Assembly: GCF_963678975.1 (NCBI RefSeq)
Contig: NC_089281.1
Coordinates: 24,656,765 to 24,720,764, forward strand
Origin: Dysidea avara
Lineage: Eukaryota > Porifera > Demospongiae > Dictyoceratida > Dysideidae
Length of the DNA: 64,000 bases
Reading direction: 5' to 3'
Positions 3,301 through 58,871 of the stretch are shown one piece after another. The translations under genes and the position numbers were made by a program. The notes beneath the pieces were generated by a model, which searched no databases, was not told where the DNA came from, and worked only from the letters and a program-made list of their open reading frames with translations. Position 1 is the first letter of the stretch, and each line of letters starts with the position of its first letter.

Positions 3301-5415
3301 ATCCATATCATGAAATGGCTGCCACCTTTGATTTCATAGCTTTTCACCCAAGCTTTTTGAAAGCCATGCCCTTTTTATACAGCTCAGATTTTTTGTGTGA
3401 ATAACAATACCGTTAAATTCGCTGTCATACTTGCATACATATGTACTGGCGTACGGGTATTGGGACTTTCCTCAATGTGTTCGCCATCAATTAGCAAGGT
3501 GTTGATTTAGCTCTATATGTACTTTAGCAGCACTTAACAGGAAGGCATTAAGTTTTGGCAAAATTGTTTTCTTTCATGGCAAGATAATGAAATGCACATA
3601 GCACGCAAGCCCCGTAGGCTACTCTTTATAAGGAGGCAAACAAAATGCTATAAATAATTTACTGCATATTTACTCCAAGAGGAAGTAATGCATACGTACG
3701 TACTGGCTGCTATATTTCTTGCGTCGGCTATTAATTTAAATTTTCATGTATCTTCCTTGCCCCTCATAGCATGAGATATTCCAAAACTACTCCAGCATCT
3801 CATTCAAGCCAGAAGAGTTTAGTGACTACTTACTCAGTCCTGAGGTTGGCTTTACTGAGTGTTTACCATTGGGAGTACCAGAGAACCCATCAAAAGGTAA
3901 ATAGTGAAGTGTAATCATTACTGCTGGTGACTTCTCAAGAGTATGATTGAAGTAAATTATCCATGTACATGTTAACATATTGTGCTGTGGTTGCACTAGT
4001 GGTATGACAAGAGTATGTACAGTGGAACCTCGATTATCCGAACACCAAATCGACTGCTCTATTAGGGTATTTTGTCAAAAAGTGTATGTTTTATTAGAGT
4101 AGTTGAGCAAAGCTCAGTATATAAATGTATGGATATTCGATCTTACGTACTTTCTATTATCCGAACACCTTTCCCCCCCAATTAGTTCGGATAATTGAGG
4201 TTCCACTGTAATAACTTTACAAACATTTCGGAGTGCCATTGTTTCTGCATACATGCGATAATGGCACACATAGATACAAAGGTAGGAAGCATAGTCAGCA
4301 CTACAAAACACTTTAGTGTTAGTTACATTTGTGAGATTGTAAGATGGGGTGCAACATTGAAGGAGTGCAGTAGCACTGAATGGAAATTCTTCATGGCGGC
4401 CAATTGTAGTTATTGTTCATGCTGTGTTCTAGTCTCATGTGGTCCACATGAAGGGTACATGTCACTATTGTATTTGCAGAATATACTACATAGAATAACT
4501 TCTTGGCTATATCCTATTCATGGAACTCAACAGTGGCTTATCATACCATTGTTGTTCATCATTTGGGAAGGTATCCCAGTACCCAAAGAGGTTTAGTGCA
4601 CAAACCATTAGGCTCACGTACAATGTATTCTAATTTTTTAGCAAGGTTTTTATATGTGACCGGATCTGCGAAAACCCGCACAAGCCTGAATTTCCAGTAT
4701 AAAGCATTGAAAACAATTGGGTGAAATATTTGCATATTATTGAGAGTAAATTTTGGAACGCCTCTTTCTTAGTGAAGGAAGGGACTAACAATAAAAACTC
4801 AAGAGGAGTTGGAAAATCTTTGTTTCGTTGCAGTAGACCCAAGGATACACAAATTATGAGCGTCTGTTTACATCACATCGAAGTGATCGTATGCAATTGA
4901 TTTTTTTCACAAATTTTGCCTTTGTATGCAGTGAAGAAAGGTGATAGAAGGACAAACTTACCCAGTAAATGATTCCCCTATCCATGGCAAACACGATGGT
5001 GAAAATTTCAGCCCATTACGTAAATCCGTTTGTAAGTTACAACTGTTTTAGTAAACAACTGTAATTTATTTTCCCTATACTTGCTGTATAAATCGATTTT
5101 TCTGTTGTTGCTACTTTGTAGGGCTGTAACTCCGAAGGTTATTGACTTATGAGGCTGAAACTTTGCCAGAAGGTGTACTTGGCTAAGCAGATTATAAATA
5201 TTTAATAAATAGGAATTCAACAAATGCACTATTGTGTCGGGTTTTCACAGATCTGGTCACATATCTGTAATTCAACATTTTGTTTTGATATTTGTACAAC
5301 AAAAGATTGTTATTTTGTATGTACAATCATCTTGTTCATCTTTTACATGTTGCTTGTTTCTATTTCAGGATTCCAACGTCCATTGGAGCTCTACATCAAG
5401 GGTGGAGAAATATGA
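376..5415 (+). CDS. MEPCE: 7SK snRNA 5'-gamma-methyl capping enzyme (MEPCE/BCDIN3 family)
   Basis: Four coding exons: 376-1410, 1741-1959, 3770-3896, 5369-5415; 475 residues, all phases consistent. The N-terminal ~215 residues are low-complexity and basic (KKKRR-type nuclear signals) and hold two copies of DPLNLEG (residues 76-82 and 114-120). The Bin3 methyltransferase domain begins with RYGNYTRYYGYRN (222-234), followed by SAM motif I VLDIGCNTG (257-265) and, in exon 2, LSLTKWIHLNWGD and LLPGGMFVLEPQPF. The C-terminus ends GFQRPLELYIKGGEI, matching the family's usual end. Known family role: nuclear S-adenosylmethionine-dependent methylation of the 5' gamma phosphate of 7SK RNA, stabilising the 7SK RNP that restrains P-TEFb. 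Introns 2 and 3 (1.8 and 1.5 kb) are filled with repeats. The start is the first ATG of the exon; the paralogous BCDIN3D is less likely because of the long basic N-terminus. Confidence 0.93.
2050..2840. repeat. Dispersed repeat, copy 1 (intron 2 of MEPCE)
   Basis: This stretch opens with ATCAAGACACATGGTAGTGT and closes with a GGTTAACCATCA...AAACCTTTTGTGGTTT segment. The same ordered blocks recur, diverged, at about 26985-28080. The two copies show it is an interspersed repeat rather than unique intron. No long ORF and no clear termini were identified, so its class is unknown. Confidence 0.6.
3154..3401. mobile_element. Inverted-repeat MITE-like element
   Basis: The two halves are an imperfect palindrome: the left arm (CTGTATAAAAAGGGTGCGG, then GAAATCAAAGGTGGCAGCC) is mirrored by the right arm ending CCCTTTTTATACAG. 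Arms are about 100 bp with a short AT-rich centre. It lies in intron 2 of MEPCE. A longer relative with similar ends spans about 28305-29270. Confidence 0.7.
4020..4208. mobile_element. pogo/Tigger-like MITE, copy 1
   Basis: A 189-bp element with terminal inverted repeats CAGTGGAACCTCGATTATCC (left) and its complement at the right, flanked by TA on both sides. The CAGTGGAACCTC terminus with TA target duplication is typical of pogo/Tigger-type Tc1-mariner elements. It is non-coding. Internally it holds the word TTATTAGAGTAGTTGAGCAA shared with the copy at 10161-10409. It sits in intron 3 of MEPCE. Confidence 0.8.
4651..5265. mobile_element. 615-bp terminal-inverted-repeat element
   Basis: Left end TATATGTGACCGGATCTGCG is mirrored at the right end (AGATCTGGTCACATAT), with about 35 bp of paired terminus including a GAAAACCCG block. 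The interior has no convincing ORF. It is inserted in MEPCE intron 3, about 100 bp before the last exon. Confidence 0.65.
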
Positions 5416-7166: not shown

Positions 7167-10100
7167 TTACAATCCTTTATTAAAATAAACAGCCTTCACA
7201 CCTGAAGGAATTGTTGACTGAACTTCTCTTTCCAGTTTAGCAACTGATATTGAACTAACAAAAAAAGGCAACAAGTCACAGTTTGTAATGTGTATGTATC
7301 TGACAAGCATCCTACGTACATGATGGACACTCACCTTTGTTGGGGGAAAATTGCACAGCATAGTGGATTAGCAAACATCAAACTGTATACAATGACATTA
7401 TGACAAACACAAGAAGGTAGTAGTATACTTACAAAAAGCCAGCAAAGAAAATCTGGATTGATGGATTAAGTACAGGCCATCGCTAAGTAGTAAAACCACA
7501 ACACTACACATTAATACTGCAGTTCTTGTACCTTCAATATGGTTGTCTTCTTGTGAAGGAGTTCTATTATAACTGGAGTAATCACTGAATAAGCCAGAGA
7601 AGTAACACGTGATTACGTTGTCATAAGTGACAGCTTACACATTGCAGGAGCTGCCATCATAACACGAGAAAATACAACTTGGGATATTGCCTTTCTAGCA
7701 GCTACCTGCAGCAAGTAATGACTAGCTAGTTGTGATCACAATTTTGTGACACACCTTTGACTTTCCAAGTTCATTTCCTTCACTGTCTTTAATGTCAATT
7801 CCCTCTATTAGATTCCTACAGCAAGCAACTGGTATTCATTATGTAAAAAGCATTGTAGTGTTTACTTTTGTCTTATCATAGGAATATTTATACAGTTGGC
7901 AATAGCAACTGCAAAATATGGTACATATCGTCCAATCAATGATGGTACAAACTGAGGGAGAAGATGTCATACATGCTTAGAGACAGACACAGACAGACAG
8001 ACACATGCACACACACAACCTTGCTCATCCTATTCATAGCCAGAGCTGAAGTCACAGCACCTCCTGTAGCACACACGTAAGGGATGGCTAACTTCCTGCA
8101 ACAATAGAAAGACAAACAGTTCAACATATACCAGTGAATGTTCTTCTCCTACAAGGTGCTTAACTGTATCATTAAGCTCTGACCCATACTGCATATGCAC
8201 ACATACTTCATCACATAACAGGAGATTGTTATAATGCCAGACCACAAATATGGATTTGCACAAGCAAAGGACACAAACTTATCTACAGAAGGTAACACAT
8301 ATCCAAATAAGTGCGTGTGGCTCACAAAAGAAGCTGGGATGCAGCATGACTAGATTATGAGTTGTTACATGTCAACTGAACCGGTTTGAACTCTGTTACA
8401 CAAGGTGGTTACCTTAAGGAAATCGCTTCACCACTTCTGTTAGTATAGTTGACGCCAGCGTTAAATGACTGGTTCATCCATTGCCAGAAAATGACTGCAC
8501 TGGGTGATCTAGTAGGAAGAAAGAACTAGATTTTCAGCCCTCATACCCACAGCTATACACATGATAACAGTTGTCTTCAATACTGTTGATATCTAAATAG
8601 TACCTCAAAGCTAGTGGTAAGTGAATAGCACATATCATACAGTACAACAGTACTGTATAGTAGGGACCACAAAGGAGTGGGGGTGGCCCAAAAAAATGTC
8701 ATCCAAAAACCAGCCTCAATTTTCCCTGACGACGATGAGGCAGTATTGTTTAGGTAAAACTAAGCCCAAATAAGCTTTGAGATCAACCAAAATGCTTTCA
8801 ACAAGTTGCTATATACAGATTTTTTTTTTAATTATTGAATAGAATTTTCTACTGACTGAGTAACTGACTGACTGATGCCTTCAGACAAGCGTAACTTCTG
8901 CAAGGCTACGGGCTGTTTGACGTCGCTTCAGCCCAAAAGGTTCCTTTTGGCATACTGTAGTACATACAATGTATTCTTCATGGACTTACCAGTGTCCTCC
9001 TTTGTGTCCCATTCATCTTTGCTGACAGCGAAAGGTGTCGATTTGGCAGTAGCACATGACAGCTTCCCTACATAACGGAAATCGTCCATATTTTTCATAG
9101 TGGCTACTTTGATTGCAGAGGTGCTTTTCAAACAGTTCTTGATTCGTATTGCTATGTAACAGGTTGAACATAGCTGACAACGAAGAGTAAAGGATATTTC
9201 ACTTTTCATTGGTAGCTGGGGTGTGTGGTGCTTTTGATGTGGTATGAGTGGGTTCACTAGTCATAATCATTTTATTTTACAAAAAGATAATAAAAACAAG
9301 TACGCAAAAAAATTGGAATTTTCAACTAGAGTAGGGACCATAGCACATCGATAAAAAGTACTGAAACAAAATCACAGTAAAACAATATGAAGTGTTATAT
9401 CCCTACCTTATGGTATCTTAAGCACAGTAGGGATATAACACTTCTTATTGTTTTACTGTAATTTAATGTTGTGCACTACTCCAGCTTGTTTCAGTACTTT
9501 TTATTGATGTGCTATGGTCCCTACTCTAGTTGAAAATTCCAATTTTTTTGTGTACTTATGAAGTATCACTACTGGACAATGATCCATGCTATTACCATGA
9601 AATTCCCATGATCCTATGAAATCCCCATGAAAGTTGCAGTCGGTTTTTTTTTCATGGGTAATGAAATACCCATGAAATACTGGAGTAAAATAATGTACCC
9701 ATGAACAACCCATGAACGAGTGAGTTTTCATGGGTTTGTATACATACAAACCCACGAAAACTCACTTGTTCATGGGTACATTATTTTGCTCTGTGCATTT
9801 CATGGGTATTTCATTACCCATGAAAAATACCAAGTGCAACTTTCATGGGTATTTCATGAGAATCATGGGAATTCCATGGTAACAGTTGTCCAGTAGTGTA
9901 TAATGCTACACTCTGAACACTACCTGAAGGGTTCCATTGCACTGCTTGCAATTTCCCTCAGTTCGCTATCCTGGCTCTCAAAGAATTTTCCTTCTCATAA
10001 GAAGACAATGTTATCAGAATGTGCTGCATTCCACAGTTTAGCATAGTATGCATATGTTCATGTTAGGCTGATTTCTGAGAAACCAGCTAAAAAGATTTTT

Positions 10101-12712: not shown

Positions 12713-15700
12713 ATGAGGCCAGTGAAGACTCGAGCTACTTGTGCGCTACAGTGTTCTCATTTTGTGACATTTCTATGGACCGCATCAGGTTTTGTCGTGT
12801 TCACCATAGTATGGGGCTGTACTGATGGCGGATACTATTCGTCCCTTCCTTTATTTTTCTTCCTATTCGCTTACTGTTACGGAACATCCATTTTAAAGAA
12901 AACATTCTGTGGAGTTGTGATGAGTAATGTTAAGATAAATGTCAACCACTTGTTGAAAGAAGACAAACGAGTCGTAATTTTACTTCTCTCGTATTTACTA
13001 CTGAAGGTTCTGTTACAAGTAACCTGCCCAGATTTGGAGAATTCCAATGGTTCACCTTTGTCATTGGTACTATTTACTGTCTTATTTATAGCTGTATACT
13101 TATTACCAACAGTCATTCAAGCATTTAGTAAAATGTTTTTAACAAAACAGAGTAGTAAATTTTCATATCAACTTACCAGCAACTTCTCAGGATTTTTCAG
13201 AGGATTAAAACAGTGGAGGTCAAGCATTGCATTCACCTTTTGTTTATTCATAATAACATTAATGTTTGATGCAGATATTAGCAGTATTTTACGCTACGTT
13301 GGTAAGGGTATGGAGTGTTGGCCTGTACTTGTCCCACTTAATGAAATGGATAAATTGCCCTACCCACTACAACATGCTTGGGTGAAGACTTGGAACATTC
13401 ACTTTGAGAACTATAGGCCAAGTTGGTTGGTGGAGTATTGTTTACACTATGGAAGAGAACTAGGAGAAGTGGCTCGTCTTCTCCCCATGTTAATTGGTAC
13501 ATACATTTTAGCACAGCTAATATTACCACAAGATTGTAAAGTGGTAAAGAAGACCTTGTTTGCTAGCATTACTGGTGTGGTGATGGGTGGAGTGGTATCT
13601 GCCAGTTTCAAGATCTTAATACACCGCTATCGACCTAATGCATATGGTAATCCATACATGTGGACAGGTCCAGGAGCAAAAGTCGTCAATCACTGGGAGT
13701 TTTCAAAACTTGACTTGTCTTTTCCCGCAGGACATACCACTGTGACAAGTGCAGTTGCAACATGTCTGTTTTCAACTATAATGGGTAATTGTAATTGCAG
13801 AAAATCACTTACAGTTTGGCTGATCTTGTGTTTTTATTTTTATCCCATTATCGTCCTACTGAGTAGAGTGACTGACTGCTATCACTGGACTTCAGATGCA
13901 TCATTTGGAGTGAGTTATTTAATTTTTGCCAACCAGACAAAGCGTGGATGTGGGTGGCTATATGTGATTTTGAGGCTTTAGGTTGTAGGTTTTCTTTAAT
14001 GAAAACATTGTAGAGTTTCTTAGTTAATTGTGGCTTTCCATTATGTGGTGATTATATCATAGTACAAGGAAATCCACATTGTAGTTATAGAGGGCTTTGC
14101 ATATGAAATAATTTAATCCATTTAGGGATCATAGAAATTTAAAGTAGTAAAAAGGAGGTCACCTACACCTACAAATATGCTAGTGGACATTTAATCCCTA
14201 ATTCAGTTAATCAGGGTCCACTAGTATATCTGCAGGTGTAGGCGACTCTAATTGTTTCACTACGTACTTTTTATTTCAATGATCCCTAACTGAACTCAAA
14301 ATTCCTCATTTACTTTTTTGTAACACAACTATGACTGGTGAACTCACATATACCACATCAATATAGAAAGCCATGAAATTAATTATTTTTACGTCTGACT
14401 TGCCCAACTATTAATGAAAATGAAGTGATTTGTTTTAAGCTATATTCAGCCTGTTACATAGCGTTACAAATGAAGAACAGTATCAGAGGGGTCTCTGCAA
14501 TCAATTCAGAAAATATGGACGATTCTCATTATAAAATATGGACGATTCTCATTATAAAATGGTCTTGTGGTGCCCAACCCTCCCCCCCAAAAATGTCCGC
14601 ACCAACTCATAGATTTTTTTTGCACACTGAAATGTTAATAACCACTACATAACTTACGTGCATTGTAAATCGATACTGGCTGTGCCATCTATTTGTCATT
14701 ATTTAATTAGCTACTTCATTTTCCTTAAGGATATAAAATACTCATGGAAGAAACAGTAACAGAAAGGTTTACCATATCAAATTGGAAGAGGAATGAAAGT
14801 ATTTTTTCCTGAAACAAAGTCTTGAAGGCACTCTCTTGGCAAGGCTTCACACGCAACTGAGTGACAGCAGAAGAAATTGCTAAAGAAACAGACTGTTTCT
14901 CATGGTGATATGGTTTGCGTGTCATTACTGACATGACGTGGCAAAATCTCATTGGTACTACAAAGATTCCAAATTTATTGAGATTCTGTAGATCCTTTTT
15001 GGGGGGATAGGCACCATGAGACTAATTATAAATGTGATAGTCAGCATAGGGAAGCCATAATGTACTGCCACAAATTGACATTTTGGAGATGTCAGCAAAA
15101 AGAAATGGGACACAAAAGTTGGACAAAGGTAAATCCATGATGCATGCTACTGCCCAGAATATTCTCAAACATTTAGCTATATCACAAATAAGATAAGAAT
15201 TACTCAGAGACAATGGGTATTAATTTGATGGTTATTTGGTAGACAGATAATGGAAGTAGCATAGCTATGAATATTTTACAACAAGTGGCAGGAAAGAAAC
15301 AAATGAATATAGTTACAGCCAGACTTATATCCTAATTAAATTTCACTATTATCCTGTGATGTCACAAGATGCATTCTTCTTATACCACTACACGTATAGA
15401 ATAGTGTAGAAGGGGAAAAGTACAAGAAAATAATATGCATGGATGCTAGCTATTCCTGTTCGCTATAACAGGATCACTATTGCTTTATTATAGTGGTAAT
15501 GTTTACCTTGTGTGGACACCAAAGTATGTACTTTATTTTCCATATGGTGAAAGGGTTTTGTATGGAAATAGTGTAAAAATAATTTTAAAACTTGGGAATA
15601 GAAATCACTGAAAAAGGTACAGAAACAAGGGTTAAACAAGCCAGCATGTTAAACACACAGAGATCTCTATTTGGACTCAATGAATATGGTAGCTAGAGAC

Positions 15701-23730: not shown

Positions 23731-30608
<6,878 letters not shown>

Positions 30609-34993: not shown

Positions 34994-35719
34994 ATGGAAA
35001 CAGGAGAATTCGTCAATTTAGCGGGATTGAAGGTGTACAACTCTAGTGGCGCACAAATTCCCGCGACAAACCTTGTCCCTTCACCCGGCCAGAAAGCATC
35101 GCTGTTGATATTTGTAAGGAACTATGCCTGAGTGGCGTGCCAGTTACAGATGGCTGCACTTGAGCCATTACAAGGTGGCCTCACCGCAAGCCAAGTAAGA
35201 ATCATTTTCATTAGTTCATCAACACCACTGCAAACTGAAGAGTTTCTACTGAAATCAGTTGTCCAGTTTCCTGGTGAACTATTCTCAGATCCAACACTGA
35301 ACATTCACAAGGTGTTTGGTCTGAAGCGAGGAATATGGCGGTCACTGGTTACCCCACTTTGGCCAGGATTTAAACAATATGGCATGATGGGAATAATAGA
35401 AGGGTTTCGACTAGGACTGGAGTTTTCACACTTGGTTGGTGATTCTTGGCAGCAAGGTGGAACATTTGTAATATCCTCAGAAGGCAGGGTGATGTTTGGA
35501 GACACAGAGGAATATCCAGGTGACTGGAAAGCAATGGACAAGGCACTTCAGTCTTGTGGAATGGATGTCAATGTTGATTATCAAGCTGCCATTCAAAAAT
35601 GGTTGAGTCTCAGGCAAAGTAGACGGTCACAAGAGTCTGAAAGACAAACCAATCACAAATTTTATCTGTTTTGGGTAACCTTCGTCATCATAATTTGTGC
35701 CATTCTTTGGTGTACATAG
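34994..35719 (+). CDS. PRXL2/SelU-family selenoprotein (AAED1/PRXL2C-like), in-frame UGA = Sec46
   Basis: Single exon, 241 residues when TGA at 35129-35131 is read as selenocysteine. The frame is open on both sides: 45 codons before (METGEFVNLAGLKVYNSSGA ... SLLIFVRNYA) and 195 after (VACQLQMAALEPLQGG ...). The motif FVRNYA-U-VAC is a U-x-x-C redox pair, aligned with the C-x-x-C of PRXL2C (AAED1) after a conserved FVR. Downstream marks of the AhpC/TSA thioredoxin-like fold follow: IFISSSTPL, FSDPTLNIHKVFGLKRG, GDSWQQGGTFVISSEGRVMF. The C-terminus adds a membrane anchor (FYLFWVTFVIIICAILW), unusual for the family. A SECIS element lies 28 nt after the stop (separate entry). Expected activity: thiol/selenol oxidoreductase. 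If the UGA were a stop, only a 45-residue peptide or an N-terminally truncated protein would result. Head-to-head with the membrane-protein gene, tail-to-tail with RNF4. Confidence 0.88.
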
Positions 35720-35737
35720 ATCGACAAGTAATACTTC

Positions 35738-35797
35738 AATGCATTTATGAAAGCTAATTGAGCAACTTACCCAAGTCATTTAGCTGGATTTAAGCAT
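35738..35797 (+). promoter_or_regulatory. SECIS element (selenocysteine insertion) in the 3' UTR
   Basis: 5' ATGAA (35747-35751) faces 3' GGAT (35786-35789), giving the non-Watson-Crick quartet U.U, G.A, A.G, A.G. Above it, AGCTAA (35752-35757) pairs with TTAGCT (35780-35785); after one T.T mismatch TGA (35759-35761) pairs with TCA (35776-35778). The apical loop GCAACTTACCCAAG carries the conserved AA at 35764-35765, 12 nt after the quartet. Below the quartet, past a small internal loop, ATGC (35739-35742) pairs with GCAT (35793-35796). All canonical SECIS parts are present with proper spacing. A folding program would confirm the type. Confidence 0.85.
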
Positions 35798-39904: not shown

Positions 39905-41190
39905 ATGTTTGCCTCAAGAATCAGTTTAGGAAACCCACTGTCTCTAGTGTTTATAGTTAGGCAATTATCACATCATAGTAGCGAATATGAGTCAGCTCTG
40001 AAGCTACTGGAGGTGAAGGCGGAGTGTGGAGAGGTGGATATCCGAAGGGCCTACCTTGACAAAGCTAGGATATACCACCCTGATTCTTCTTCTGGTTCTG
40101 CAGATGCACAAAAGTTTTCAGAGGTATTTGTTTAGTCTCCTAATGTTTACTGTTATACAAAACATGCATAGTATGTATGTTGTAAATAGTCTAATTAATG
40201 TGTTTATTTTACAACCAGAAGTGTTTTGCATTTTCATGTGAGATGTTTTAATAGGTGCAAGAAGCCTACAGGATTTGTATGCAGCAGGCTAAAGAGGTAC
40301 AATTATCTGCAGACAAAACGGCGGAGATAATTGAAGATGAATTGACGGCCTTAGACCACAGCTTAGCATTTGGTGGTAGGTCTCGTAAACTGCAACACCG
40401 ACGTTATTTAGAGTACACTGCGGGGGGTACTGGAACCACACTGTATCAGAGACACAAGGCACACCAGCAGCAGAAATGTGAATCAGCTACAGAAACTATT
40501 TTTGAACACAGTGTCCGTAAACATTTTGAGAACAAGGAGGAAAAAATGCCAGCAGTCTTGGATAAGAAGCAACAAGCAACTAATTCAGATGTTGAGTACA
40601 CAAGAAAGCAAAAGTTCAGTAAAGGAATGGATAGGCTTGTTAATGATTTAATATTGGAGTCAATGTCGAGGGGTGAATTTAACGATTTGCCAGGTACTGG
40701 TAAACCTTTGTCCCAACTAAAGGAGCCACCAAACCCAGTATTGGATAGAACCACAGAAAGACTCAATCAAATTTTAGTAAACACGGGGTTTGCCCCTCAA
40801 TGGGTGACCCTTGGTAAGGACATCAACACACAAGTGAACCAGTTAAGAAAAAAGATTTGTATGAAATGGAAACAGCTTGGTCCACTGCCTATGGACTTGT
40901 ACAACACTAAGAAGTGGAACGAGTTTTTAGCTGAGTGTGAATGTGACTTGGTTTTAGTTAACAAAATGGTGGACAAGTTTAACTTGATCGTACCCATCCT
41001 TAACCAGCAGAAAATTCACTACCAGTTACAGAGACTAGTCTCTCAGGTATTAACTGATAACCCAGTACCCATTGAACATGACCCTGATGACACACTCACA
41101 TATACCCACCAGTGGACCTATGACATAAAGAGCAAATTTAATGAACTGTATCAGTTTCTTCTATCAAAGATTGAATTCACAAAAAAGTAG
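39905..41190 (+). CDS. DNAJC28: DNAJC28-type mitochondrial J-domain / DUF1992 protein
   Basis: Two coding exons, 39905-40123 and 40255-41190; 384 residues. The N-terminus (MFASRISLGNPLSLVFIVRQ) is basic and hydrophobic, like a mitochondrial presequence. A J-domain follows (about 27-90): SALKLLEVKAECGEVDIRRAY, the catalytic YHPD tripeptide context, and VQEAYRICM across the splice. The DUF1992 core reads GMDRLVNDLILESMSRGEF-N-DLPGTGKPL and TTERLNQILVNTGFAPQW. The family is a J-protein cochaperone of HSP70, associated with organelle/Golgi or mitochondrial function; the precise role is not established. Its stop lies only 62 bp from the DCTN1 stop on the other strand, so the 3' UTRs must overlap or be extremely short. 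Confidence 0.92.
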
Positions 41191-53200: not shown

Positions 53201-54213
53201 GGTACCTAGTCTCATGTGGCCAGACCGCTTTTTTTTCCATGTATTGGGTGGAGAAAAAAGGGTCTGGTGCGACTCCAATAGCTGTTTACTTCTGAGCCGT
53301 CCCCAGACACTGGGGACGCTAATTGAATAACATTGGCCGCAAAGGAGGCGCTGATGACGTCAGTAAGTAAACTCAAGATGGCTTTGATCTGTTCGTCCTT
53401 TAAACGAATCTTAATTTGCTTCGATGTCTCTTTTATAACGTCTTGAAAGTTCATCCTCATTGTGTAACAAGACTCACAACCGGAGTAGGAGTGTACGAAT
53501 ACTTCATTGTTTTACTGACGTCATGGCGCCTCCTTTGCGGCCAATGTTATTCAATTAGTGCCCCCAGAGTCTGGGGATGGCTCAGAAGTAAACAGCTATT
53601 GGAGTTGCACCAGACCCTTTTTTCCCCACCCAATACACCGAAAAAAGCGGTCTGGCCACGCGAGACTAGGGAGTACCTAGTGAGGTCTGGCCACATGAGA
53701 CTAAAGTTTCACCTTAACATCACAGAGAATGCACATCAAATAAGATAACAAGTAGAGCACCTGTTCTTTAACTACTTCTTTACTAGGTAAGGTTGGTTGC
53801 GATGTTGACTTCATTGAAGTTGGTGCACTTGGAGTAGAAGTTTTGCTAGAATCTCCGGCTGCACTGGGTGGCTTCCTTATCTGTGCTGGACTACCTCGTG
53901 GTGAACGTTTAGACAGTGAAGATGGCATGGGTATCCTAGAATCAGACTTTGTGGGCTGAACACTGTCCAACATCATGATTTGGTTTTGTCGCACAAATAA
54001 GCCACAGCTATCTGGACAGGTAAAATACTGTTTTCCCTGTATAGATCCATTGTTTTTTCCTTTAGGCTCGCCCAACTGAATCCCAATCCACTTCCCAGGC
54101 GCGAAGTCTGTTGTTCCCACAAACTTAACAATTCCTTCTAAGTTTTTGTCCTTAACGAAAACTCTACCACCAACTATGATTGGTTTTCCGCCAGCATCGG
54201 TCTCATCTGACAT
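41253..54213 (-). CDS. DCTN1: Dynactin subunit 1, p150Glued
   Basis: 28 coding exons, in transcript order: 54213-53761, 53014-52862, 52817-52638, 52587-52491, 52385-52307, 52255-52096, 51929-51723, 51120-50905, 50445-50260, 50208-50098, 49822-49688, 49636-49583, 49477-49346, 49075-49001, 48411-48355, 48291-48189, 47456-47345, 47293-47200, 46616-46491, 46423-46352, 44813-44743, 44653-44517, 44407-44253, 43445-43374, 43319-43221, 41735-41610, 41547-41452, 41402-41253; 1235 residues with all phases consistent (human ~1278). Exon 1 encodes the CAP-Gly domain ([40 protein letters not shown]) and a basic Ser/Pro linker. Exons 2-8 are coiled coil 1, which contacts dynein intermediate chain; the middle is a globular region; exons 19-25 are further coiled coil; the tail ends [17 protein letters not shown]. 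It links dynein to microtubules and cargo. Exon 11's acceptor was taken at TATTTAG|CTGGGATGG to keep frame. Human-like CAP-Gly GKNDG is GKNNG here. Confidence 0.93.
41736..43220. other. DCTN1 intron 25 with an exon-like plus-strand stretch
   Basis: This 1.5-kb intron is mostly plain AT-rich sequence. At 42846-42930 there is a GC-richer open stretch on the plus strand, bracketed by TTAG and CAG|GTTATG, reading [20 protein letters not shown]. It looks like one exon of a fibronectin-III-like domain but no neighbour exon was found. 43110-43190 is a GT/GC-rich alternating purine-pyrimidine tract. Confidence 0.4.
44814..46351. other. DCTN1 intron 20
   Basis: A 1.5-kb intron without a recognised element. 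A plus-strand open frame at 46003-46263 (86 codons) lacks any family resemblance and any exon context; I treat it as chance. Confidence 0.4.
49140..49262. repeat. Alternating CA/TG/CG simple-sequence tract
   Basis: CA-rich then TG-rich runs meeting in GTGCACGCGCACGTGTGC at 49210-49227, with both runs partly complementary. A similar GCGCGCACACGCGC tract lies at 51986-52020 in another DCTN1 intron. Such tracts can form hairpins or left-handed DNA; no coding content. Confidence 0.7.
53206..53670. mobile_element. Long-arm foldback element in DCTN1 intron 1
   Basis: Arms of about 150 bp: left TAGTCTCATGTGGCCAGACC, then GGGTCTGGTGCGACTCCAAT and GCCGTCCCCAGACACTGGGG; right mirrors these and ends GGTCTGGCCACGCGAGACTA. 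A further terminal copy (GGTCTGGCCACATGAGACTA) at 53684-53703 suggests nesting or slippage. The ~130-bp centre reads, on the minus strand, [20 protein letters not shown], resembling the start of RecQ-type helicase genes of invertebrates. It shares termini with the larger element at 54324-55968. Confidence 0.75.
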
Positions 54214-57908: not shown

Positions 57909-58871
57909 TCACGATTCACATATTTGTTTGTTATTAGTCCATTGTTGTAGTTGGTCATAGTACACCAGACTGTGGTCTATTTTATGACAGATGTTATGAA
58001 CATGTTCCCATGCTTGTTCCAAGCTCATATGACACATCATTGTCAGATAGGCTAGCACCACACTAGCAGACCGTGAACGACCTAACATCTTGATCAGGAC
58101 ACGGGCAGATGGAGTCTCCTGTGAAGCACTGTCAATAAAACGTACAGCAGCATTCCAGCAACCTGCCATATTCTGATAGTCCGTGTCCCTCACATCACAT
58201 TTAAGAACTGAAATCCCTGTCAGCTGTCCCCAGTCTAATAGCTGGTGTTGGGAGACTATTACGTGTGTAACGTGTAACTTGTGCAGGTAGTCTGCCTCTA
58301 GTGGTACTACACGAGATGCTAGGTAGACATGTTCAGTAATATGGTGGGGCAGTGGCATCATCTCCATGAATGTTATTTGACCACAAAGAAAGTCGTATTG
58401 CTTTTGGAAGCCATCATAACCTCCTTCCAAGTACCACACCTCTCTTGTCTTATCTGCTATTGTAATGCAGAAATACTCAACTGGGTTAACTTGCTGGGAT
58501 CCTCCACTGGAATCAGCTGTCACTTTGGCTACAGATAGGCGGTCCTTCTTCAGGAATTCCAACCTTTTGGCTAACCAATGCGCATGTTCTCGCGCATTTT
58601 CACCGTCGCCATATACCACTACCGGATTTGGATTCTCAGGTCGCAAGCACTCCTCGATCACTATATGGATAAACTTTAACAAGGATGCTTCTTTTTCTTC
58701 ATCAGTCAAGCTGGGTGACCATGAAGGGTAATGGATGGCAGACACTATGTGACCAAGTTGGTATTTTTCCTCGCTTCTTGTGTCGATCACTAAATGGTGT
58801 TCGTACAGTGGTAGATTAAATAACTCTACGGGGGGAACAGCTCTAAAGTGCACCTCCATCACCCAGATCAC
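57909..58871 (-). CDS. STYXL1: STYXL1 (MK-STYX)-like rhodanese / dual-specificity pseudophosphatase
   Basis: Single exon, 320 residues. The N-terminal rhodanese domain (about 10-160) has LVIDTRSEEKYQLGHIVSAI and VVVYGDGENA, where the usual catalytic cysteine after VVY is glycine 88. A dual-specificity phosphatase domain (about 170-312) follows, with HITEHVYLASRVVPLEADYL and MCHMSLEQAWEHV. The signature HCxxGxSRS reads IKMLGRSRS (260-268): histidine is Ile260 and the nucleophilic cysteine is Lys261, while Gly264 and Arg267 remain. Both active sites are therefore dead, as in vertebrate MK-STYX (which has FS instead of HC). The family acts as a non-catalytic regulator, in stress granules (G3BP1) and mitochondrial apoptosis in mammals. 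A methionine at residue 5 is an alternative start. Lies 98 bp from a divergent kelch gene. Confidence 0.88.
   Translation of the reverse strand: MIWVMEVHFRAVPPVELFNLPLYEHHLVIDTRSEEKYQLGHIVSAIHYPSWSPSLTDEEKEASLLKFIHIVIEECLRPENPNPVVVYGDGENAREHAHWLAKRLEFLKKDRLSVAKVTADSSGGSQQVNPVEYFCITIADKTREVWYLEGGYDGFQKQYDFLCGQITFMEMMPLPHHITEHVYLASRVVPLEADYLHKLHVTHVIVSQHQLLDWGQLTGISVLKCDVRDTDYQNMAGCWNAAVRFIDSASQETPSARVLIKMLGRSRSASVVLAYLTMMCHMSLEQAWEHVHNICHKIDHSLVYYDQLQQWTNNKQICES

Follow-up and report, generated by a model that had tools for sequence, protein, structure and literature searches.

An intronless gene with an in-frame TGA in Dysidea avara, probably encoding a tail-anchored selenoprotein of the PRXL2/SelL superfamily

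The selenocysteine (Sec) forms of SelU in vertebrates all belong to SelU1, according to the part of PMC3316567 drawn on here. In the corresponding part of PMC3473315, Sec SelU3 is given as common and Sec SelU2 (C9orf21-like) as found in Trichoplax only, in one gene, so that a Sec form of the PRXL2C branch in early animals is, with Trichoplax SelU2, already published. The same portion of that source lists four Sec SelU genes and one SelL gene for Amphimedon, and describes a Sec family, named AphC-like, from sponges only. SelL, as presented in the section of PMC2397514 used here, forms a diselenide bond and is known from aquatic organisms only; UxxU forms also occur in a peroxiredoxin-like (Prx-like) family of marine bacteria (PMC2398784, in its relevant excerpt), and prokaryotic and algal selenoproteins are covered, again in the excerpts used, by PMC13188914 and PMC7539508.

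Here we describe a gene of the sponge Dysidea avara that is quite likely a functional animal selenoprotein gene, encoding a tail-anchored UxxC Prx-like enzyme of a lineage of its own, apart from PRXL2A, PRXL2B, PRXL2C and SelL.

The window gene, its hairpin and its C-terminal tail

The window, by which we mean the whole 64,000-nucleotide stretch analysed, lies on contig C10 of a genome of 550.8 Mb in 108 contigs. The gene and its 3' flank show the following features:

34994..35719, + strand: single-exon coding sequence of 241 residues plus a TAG stop, with one in-frame TGA (frame, homology, start context)
35129..35131, + strand: TGA codon 46, very probably read as Sec, the putative attacking residue of U-V-A-C (aligned with the PRXL2B cysteine; seven relatives)
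35138..35140, + strand: TGC codon 49, putative resolving cysteine (aligned with the second cysteine of the PRXL2B motif)
35660..35713, + strand: C-terminal hydrophobic helix, residues 223-240, putative tail anchor (hydropathy and single-sequence model)
35739..35797, + strand: SECIS-like hairpin, with lower helix 35739-42/35794-97 and quartet 35747-50/35786-89 (pattern and fold)
35752-61/35776-85, + strand: helix II of the hairpin, with the apical AA at 35764-65 (pattern and fold)

From the ATG at 34994 to the TAG at 35717-35719 the frame runs for 242 codons including the stop, with the TGA as its sole interruption; the start stands in a favourable context (AAC-ATG-G), in-frame stops lie upstream of it, and no intron is needed for this reading. 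In Pfam, AhpC-TSA_2 (PF13911) matched residues 63-168 at 51.8 bits (gathering cut-off 27), placing the protein in this superfamily, and AhpC-TSA matched residues 32-112, a segment spanning the TGA, at 30.6 bits. The best match to a solved structure was PRXL2B in PDB entry 9us9 (phmmer, window residues 35-194, E 4.4e-8), in which U46 pairs with the first and Cys49 with the second cysteine of the C-x-x-C motif; we take this entry to be the human protein, its database record giving the enzyme name only. The next match, 9usa, has serine at both motif positions. The TGA therefore stands over the redox cysteine of homologs, with homology on both sides, as the first-pass annotation of this locus had proposed, and together with the hairpin, the Sec machinery and the relatives described below, UGA 46 is very probably read as selenocysteine. 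Automated annotation would probably end such a gene at the TGA or place its start beyond it.

The 3' hairpin (35747-35789) begins 28 nt past the stop and consists of ATGA, a 10-position helix (nine Watson-Crick pairs and one U.U), an apical GCAAC with the AA on the 5' side of the loop, and GGAT. Folding gave pair probabilities of 0.87-1.00 for eight of the nine helix II pairs and 0.77 for the remaining one, and of 0.93-0.98 for the lower helix; an extra small helix in the loop, with two pairs at 0.38, would make the hairpin form-2-like in the usual naming of SECIS forms. A strict SECIS pattern of our own writing gave two matches in 128 kb of window strand, this hairpin included, against a mean of 0.6 in shuffled windows (n = 30), and a slightly looser version was matched by 42 of 20,000 sequences made by dinucleotide shuffling of the 250 nt that follow the stop; since the pattern was written, and its thresholds fixed, after the hairpin had been seen, these chance figures are somewhat generous. 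The hairpin claimed in the first-pass annotation, including its spacing from the stop, was confirmed, and pattern and fold both support a SECIS in the 3' UTR. Against it, Rfam returned no SECIS in the 64-kb window, and the 111-nt stretch did not fold with unusual stability (z -0.56). Across the genome, Rfam SECIS_1 likewise gave nothing among the 150 candidates scored out of 14,648, and was also silent in 14 controls, all prokaryotes; with several likely Sec genes in the same genome and with prokaryotic controls, this negative carries little weight.

At the protein's C-terminus, hydropathy reaches its maximum (mean 2.35 over residues 223-241) directly after a basic stretch, and a single-sequence model predicts one helix at 196-240 that is confident from about residue 221 (pLDDT 93-97 over 221-241), in agreement with the membrane-type helix noted previously. 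The remainder of this model is poor (mean pLDDT 40.7 overall), and the tail helix is therefore the sole part used. A tail anchor calls, at the level of sequence, for a single hydrophobic helix no more than about 30 residues from the end of the protein, which fits the helix seen here (223-240 of 241), and the simplest reading of this predicted helix suggests a tail-anchored enzyme facing the cytosol. Among the papers listed by searches of the family literature that were worded without a membrane anchor, we found no tail-anchored PRXL2 or SelL member.

Elsewhere in the window we noted a PAP2-domain gene (12713-13981, +), a DJC28-type gene (40255-41190, +), a CAP-Gly gene (53701-54213, -) and a gene combining Rhodanese and dual-specificity phosphatase domains (57909-58871, -), together with a dinucleotide repeat at 29301-29630 that translates as a long poly-CV frame.

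Selenocysteine machinery and relatives in the same genome

The genome contains a tRNA-Sec with anticodon TCA, scoring 75.8 bits (cut-off 47) with a model that also weakly matches all 14 controls and exceeds the cut-off in five of them. Five SepSecS-family exon matches, one holding a TGA, lie at C10:30001307-30003156; the SepSecS model also matches three of the 14 controls, B. subtilis among them. With tRNA-Sec and SepSecS-type exons both present, the organism very probably uses selenocysteine. Another 22 tRNA-Sec matches, which at 39-46 bits do not reach the cut-off, were seen on C5, C6, C8, C10 and C11, several of them clustered with equal scores; they probably represent other tRNAs with a long arm, or repeats derived from tRNAs.

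Relatives of the window gene were found in genome profile searches with PF13911 (six matches) and NF040769 (two matches). PRXL2A, on C12, reads RRPG-U-SLCRQ, with TGA at the active site, and PRXL2B is present in four copies on C13 that read RRFG-U-[EQ]LCRLGA; three of them form a tandem array and the fourth lies some 0.55 Mb from it. SelL, on C12 (26057166-26057624, -), reads LRHLA-U-LP-U-R with two TGA codons. Together with a PRXL2C gene on C5, described below, and the window gene itself, TGA occupies the active site in eight of eight superfamily members found, a count from an exon-by-exon search that may have missed others. The window gene is single-copy: in a search of its own genome, its protein finds only itself at E 0.1.

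Several details of these and other loci were recorded alongside. The tandem PRXL2B genes lie within C13:6419000-6428900, at 4546, 5757 and 7336, each with a TGA in its active site; the second has another in-frame stop near its C-terminus (VILE-stop-FNIRPE), and the SECIS-like hairpin of the third lacks the AA in its apical loop. As read, the C12 SelL is extended at its N-terminus by about 145 residues, and its own SECIS-like hairpin stands about 20 nt past the stop. Apparently two GPX genes are present on C5 (loci C5:4671983, C5:28645120 and C5:28648816), one a Cys form (VNVASYCGYT) and the other carrying TGA where GPX enzymes usually have Sec (VNVASQ-U-GLA); the TGA form is the locus at C5:28645120, to which C5:28648816 adds an exon. 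A weak Rdx/SelW-type match at C6:34979670-34979786 (-), at 22.8 bits, reads CTGCRWD-stop-SWLNTAQQIL-stop with one TGA and one TAG, and is probably a pseudogene.

These genes also served as controls for the SECIS pattern. In its strict form, the pattern misses five likely SECIS elements, that of SelL and those of the four PRXL2B copies; a relaxed form recovers four of these five downstream of their coding ends, namely SelL and three of the four PRXL2B, and the fourth PRXL2B hairpin is matched only when the demand for AA is dropped. Neither form gave a match within about 900 nt of the PRXL2C 3' end, nor in the stretches scanned for GPX and for PRXL2A, the latter taken without its last exons. Among the Rdx-family loci, one strict match adjoins the exon at L019; the other four gave no strict match, with one relaxed match upstream at L018 and none at L020-L022. 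The background amounted to two strict and 12 relaxed matches in 177,326 strand-bases, window included. In an alignment of the genome's SECIS elements the 3' quartets are misaligned, and four of its seven rows come from one gene family.

The PRXL2C gene was located with what we take to be the human PRXL2C sequence, a provisional version used both for searches and for defining the PRXL2C insert:

C5:24942500-24952400, reverse strand, about 8250-8290 in that stretch, and C5:24933500-24943400: C5 PRXL2C gene (exon matches)

This query matched two C5 exons (E 0.009 and 0.05; 23.5 bits for the best) and reached the window at E 1.1e-4 and 29.6 bits. Further PRXL2C-like exons on C5 include the sequence TGNSSEHVKSSMIGGTLKS...QGDIKQQGG, which corresponds to the insert of the human protein, and an upstream micro-exon that reads HFL-U-YICQEYIR (E 0.007) and has good splice sites, with a poly-T/AG acceptor before it and a GTAAAC donor after it. 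Between two of the C5 exons, apparent coding fragments of mobile elements were visible by eye. The insert, S-x-x-SPHxKS...G-x-L-x-S before QGDxxQQGG, is present in the C5 gene and absent from the window protein. Although the C5 model is incomplete, wanting the first coding exon and about a dozen residues after the micro-exon, these matches point to an intron-bearing Sec-form PRXL2C distinct from the window gene. An orthologous relationship between the window gene and PRXL2C would presuppose no other copy in the genome, and the C5 gene, with its PRXL2C-specific stretches, is such a copy. The PRXL2C/AAED1 identity given in the first-pass annotation was therefore dropped.

Family placement and alternative readings

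Aligned with eight other rows, the window protein shows 22-29% identity to each. The trees built were small and long-branched (SelL very long), with some rows of provisional sequence and some joined from exons by eye. In the 11-row tree, human PRXL2C and the C5 gene pair at 90/95 with the window gene outside, and the window gene groups at 85/83 with SelL and a provisional consensus of bacterial SelL-related proteins, unstarred and on long branches; the 10-row tree, built without that consensus, places it with SelL at 84/85, again unstarred, and a 9-row tree groups it with the genome's SelL and the consensus at 95/94. A clade of the window gene with PRXL2C is not rejected (p-AU 0.142), on small trees with provisional and joined rows. 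Profiles of two to four rows scored the window protein at 66.5 bits for the SelL-related group, which includes the provisional consensus, 41.3 each for B and C, and 8.0 for A. Single-sequence phmmer gave 49.3 bits for the provisional consensus, 36.3 for PRXL2B and 35.8 for PRXL2C, and blastp gave 52.8 bits for human PRXL2C, 48.9 for PRXL2B and 45.4 for the consensus. NF040769 matched window residues 25-185 at 74.5 bits, under its cut-off of 120; it scored the genome's SelL at 127.5, a provisional human PRXL2A at 45.5, a PRXL2B fragment at 48.4 and the provisional human PRXL2C at 82.3, a value which, set against that of the window protein, means that this profile fails to separate the branches. 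Comparison with PRXL2A, PRXL2B and PRXL2C supports membership in the superfamily but not assignment to the AAED1 branch. On these sequence comparisons the window gene most likely encodes a Prx-like oxidoreductase with a UxxC motif; within the PRXL2/SelL superfamily it would form a branch of its own, lying somewhere between PRXL2 and SelL, for which the trees give weak support.

Other placements have to be weighed against this one. That the gene belongs to the SelL-related branch proper, as a UxxC cousin of SelL, is possible, given the tree groupings and the best small-profile score described above; yet the window protein reads UVAC with a single TGA and not UxxU with two Sec, its NF040769 score is below the cut-off that the genome's own SelL passes, and the grouping is unstarred in the two later trees, next to a very long SelL branch. 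A sponge-only selenoprotein of the AphC-like type, reported in 2012 from Amphimedon, Oscarella and Suberites, would be thioredoxin-like and Sec-containing as well, according to the part of PMC3473315 used here. This reading is unlikely, because that part gives AphC-like proteins no homologs in other eukaryotes, whereas the window protein matches PRXL2B, and gives the Amphimedon genes two or five coding exons, whereas the window gene has no introns. It is quite unlikely that the gene is PRXL2C/AAED1, or a retrocopy that arose from it recently by intronless duplication, even though the window protein shares a QQGGT stretch with the provisional human PRXL2C, scores slightly better with human PRXL2C than with PRXL2B in blastp, and outscores any single C5 exon with the human PRXL2C query, and even though a clade with PRXL2C is not rejected. 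Against it, the PRXL2C with the diagnostic insert sits separately on C5, the pair of human PRXL2C and the C5 gene (90/95) leaves the window gene outside, and the C5 copy (its exons joined by us, and incomplete) gives the window protein a score of no more than 9.5 bits, which argues against a recent retrocopy.

Two further readings would remove the selenocysteine altogether. A single base change suffices to turn a TGC or TGT cysteine codon into TGA, but a pseudogene of this kind is highly improbable with 195 open codons after the TGA, a SECIS-like hairpin rightly placed and seven relatives in this genome whose TGA occupies the equivalent position. Splicing could also take out the TGA in frame, as 26 in-frame GT..AG pairs of at least 35 nt span it, and the donor-like GTAAGG at 35114, with an AG at 35149 or 35164, looks good; this is hardly credible, since the putative introns would be 36 or 51 nt long and would delete an active-site motif conserved in the family, and the family match continues across the TGA site when no intron is assumed.

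Searches outside animals returned no relative. Pattern scans matched 1, 39 and 75 stretches in viral contigs and 43 and 343 in bacterial and archaeal genomes, none of which was confirmed; plasmids and phages searched with the window protein, plasmids searched with the provisional bacterial consensus and the provisional human PRXL2C, and PHROGs gave no match. A recent bacterial origin finds no support in these plasmid, phage and prokaryote searches, of which the pattern scans were narrow.

Proposed function and comparison with described families

As a UxxC enzyme on a branch between PRXL2 and SelL, the window gene product would be made by a ribosome that inserts selenocysteine at UGA 46 under direction of the SECIS in the 3' UTR, yielding a thioredoxin-fold, peroxiredoxin-like member of the superfamily. 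Enzymes of this family work by selenolate attack, a resolving cysteine and a thioredoxin-type reductant. By analogy, the selenolate would attack a peroxide or disulfide, Cys49 would then resolve the intermediate by forming a selenenylsulfide, and reduction by a thioredoxin-type donor would restore the enzyme. The C-terminal helix would insert post-translationally into an intracellular membrane and leave the enzyme in the cytosol. We tentatively propose an undescribed early-animal selenoprotein lineage, tail-anchored, with a UxxC motif, distinct from PRXL2A, PRXL2B, PRXL2C and SelL, and possibly acting at membranes as a selenium-dependent reductase of lipid peroxides or endoperoxides. If this is right, the animal PRXL2/SelL superfamily would have more Sec lineages than usually listed, one of them seated in a membrane, and a natural membrane-bound selenoenzyme would be at hand for comparison with GPX4-type protection. 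The TGA at the active site of all superfamily members found in this genome bears on whether Sec or Cys is the ancestral state.

Among described systems, the sponge AphC-like proteins resemble the window protein by description only, as thioredoxin-like Sec proteins outside the standard families, and differ in that the reported Amphimedon genes have introns, according to the part of the 2012 report used here. SelL and the bacterial SelL-related proteins (NF040769) are tree neighbours with a near full-length profile match; SelL is UxxU (ULPU in this genome), whereas the window protein is UxxC and under the NF040769 cut-off. PRXL2B, the prostamide/prostaglandin F synthase (SelU3), shares the C-x-x-C equivalent with Sec first, at about 28% identity, but the copies in this genome have introns, and the two C-termini read carry no membrane tail. 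PRXL2C/AAED1 (SelU2, C9orf21) shares the thioredoxin-like AhpC-TSA_2 domain, the active-site position and QQGGT, and has Sec forms both on C5 of this genome and, in the portion of PMC3473315 cited, in Trichoplax; in contrast to it, the window gene is intronless, is without the PRXL2C insert and ends in a C-terminal helix.
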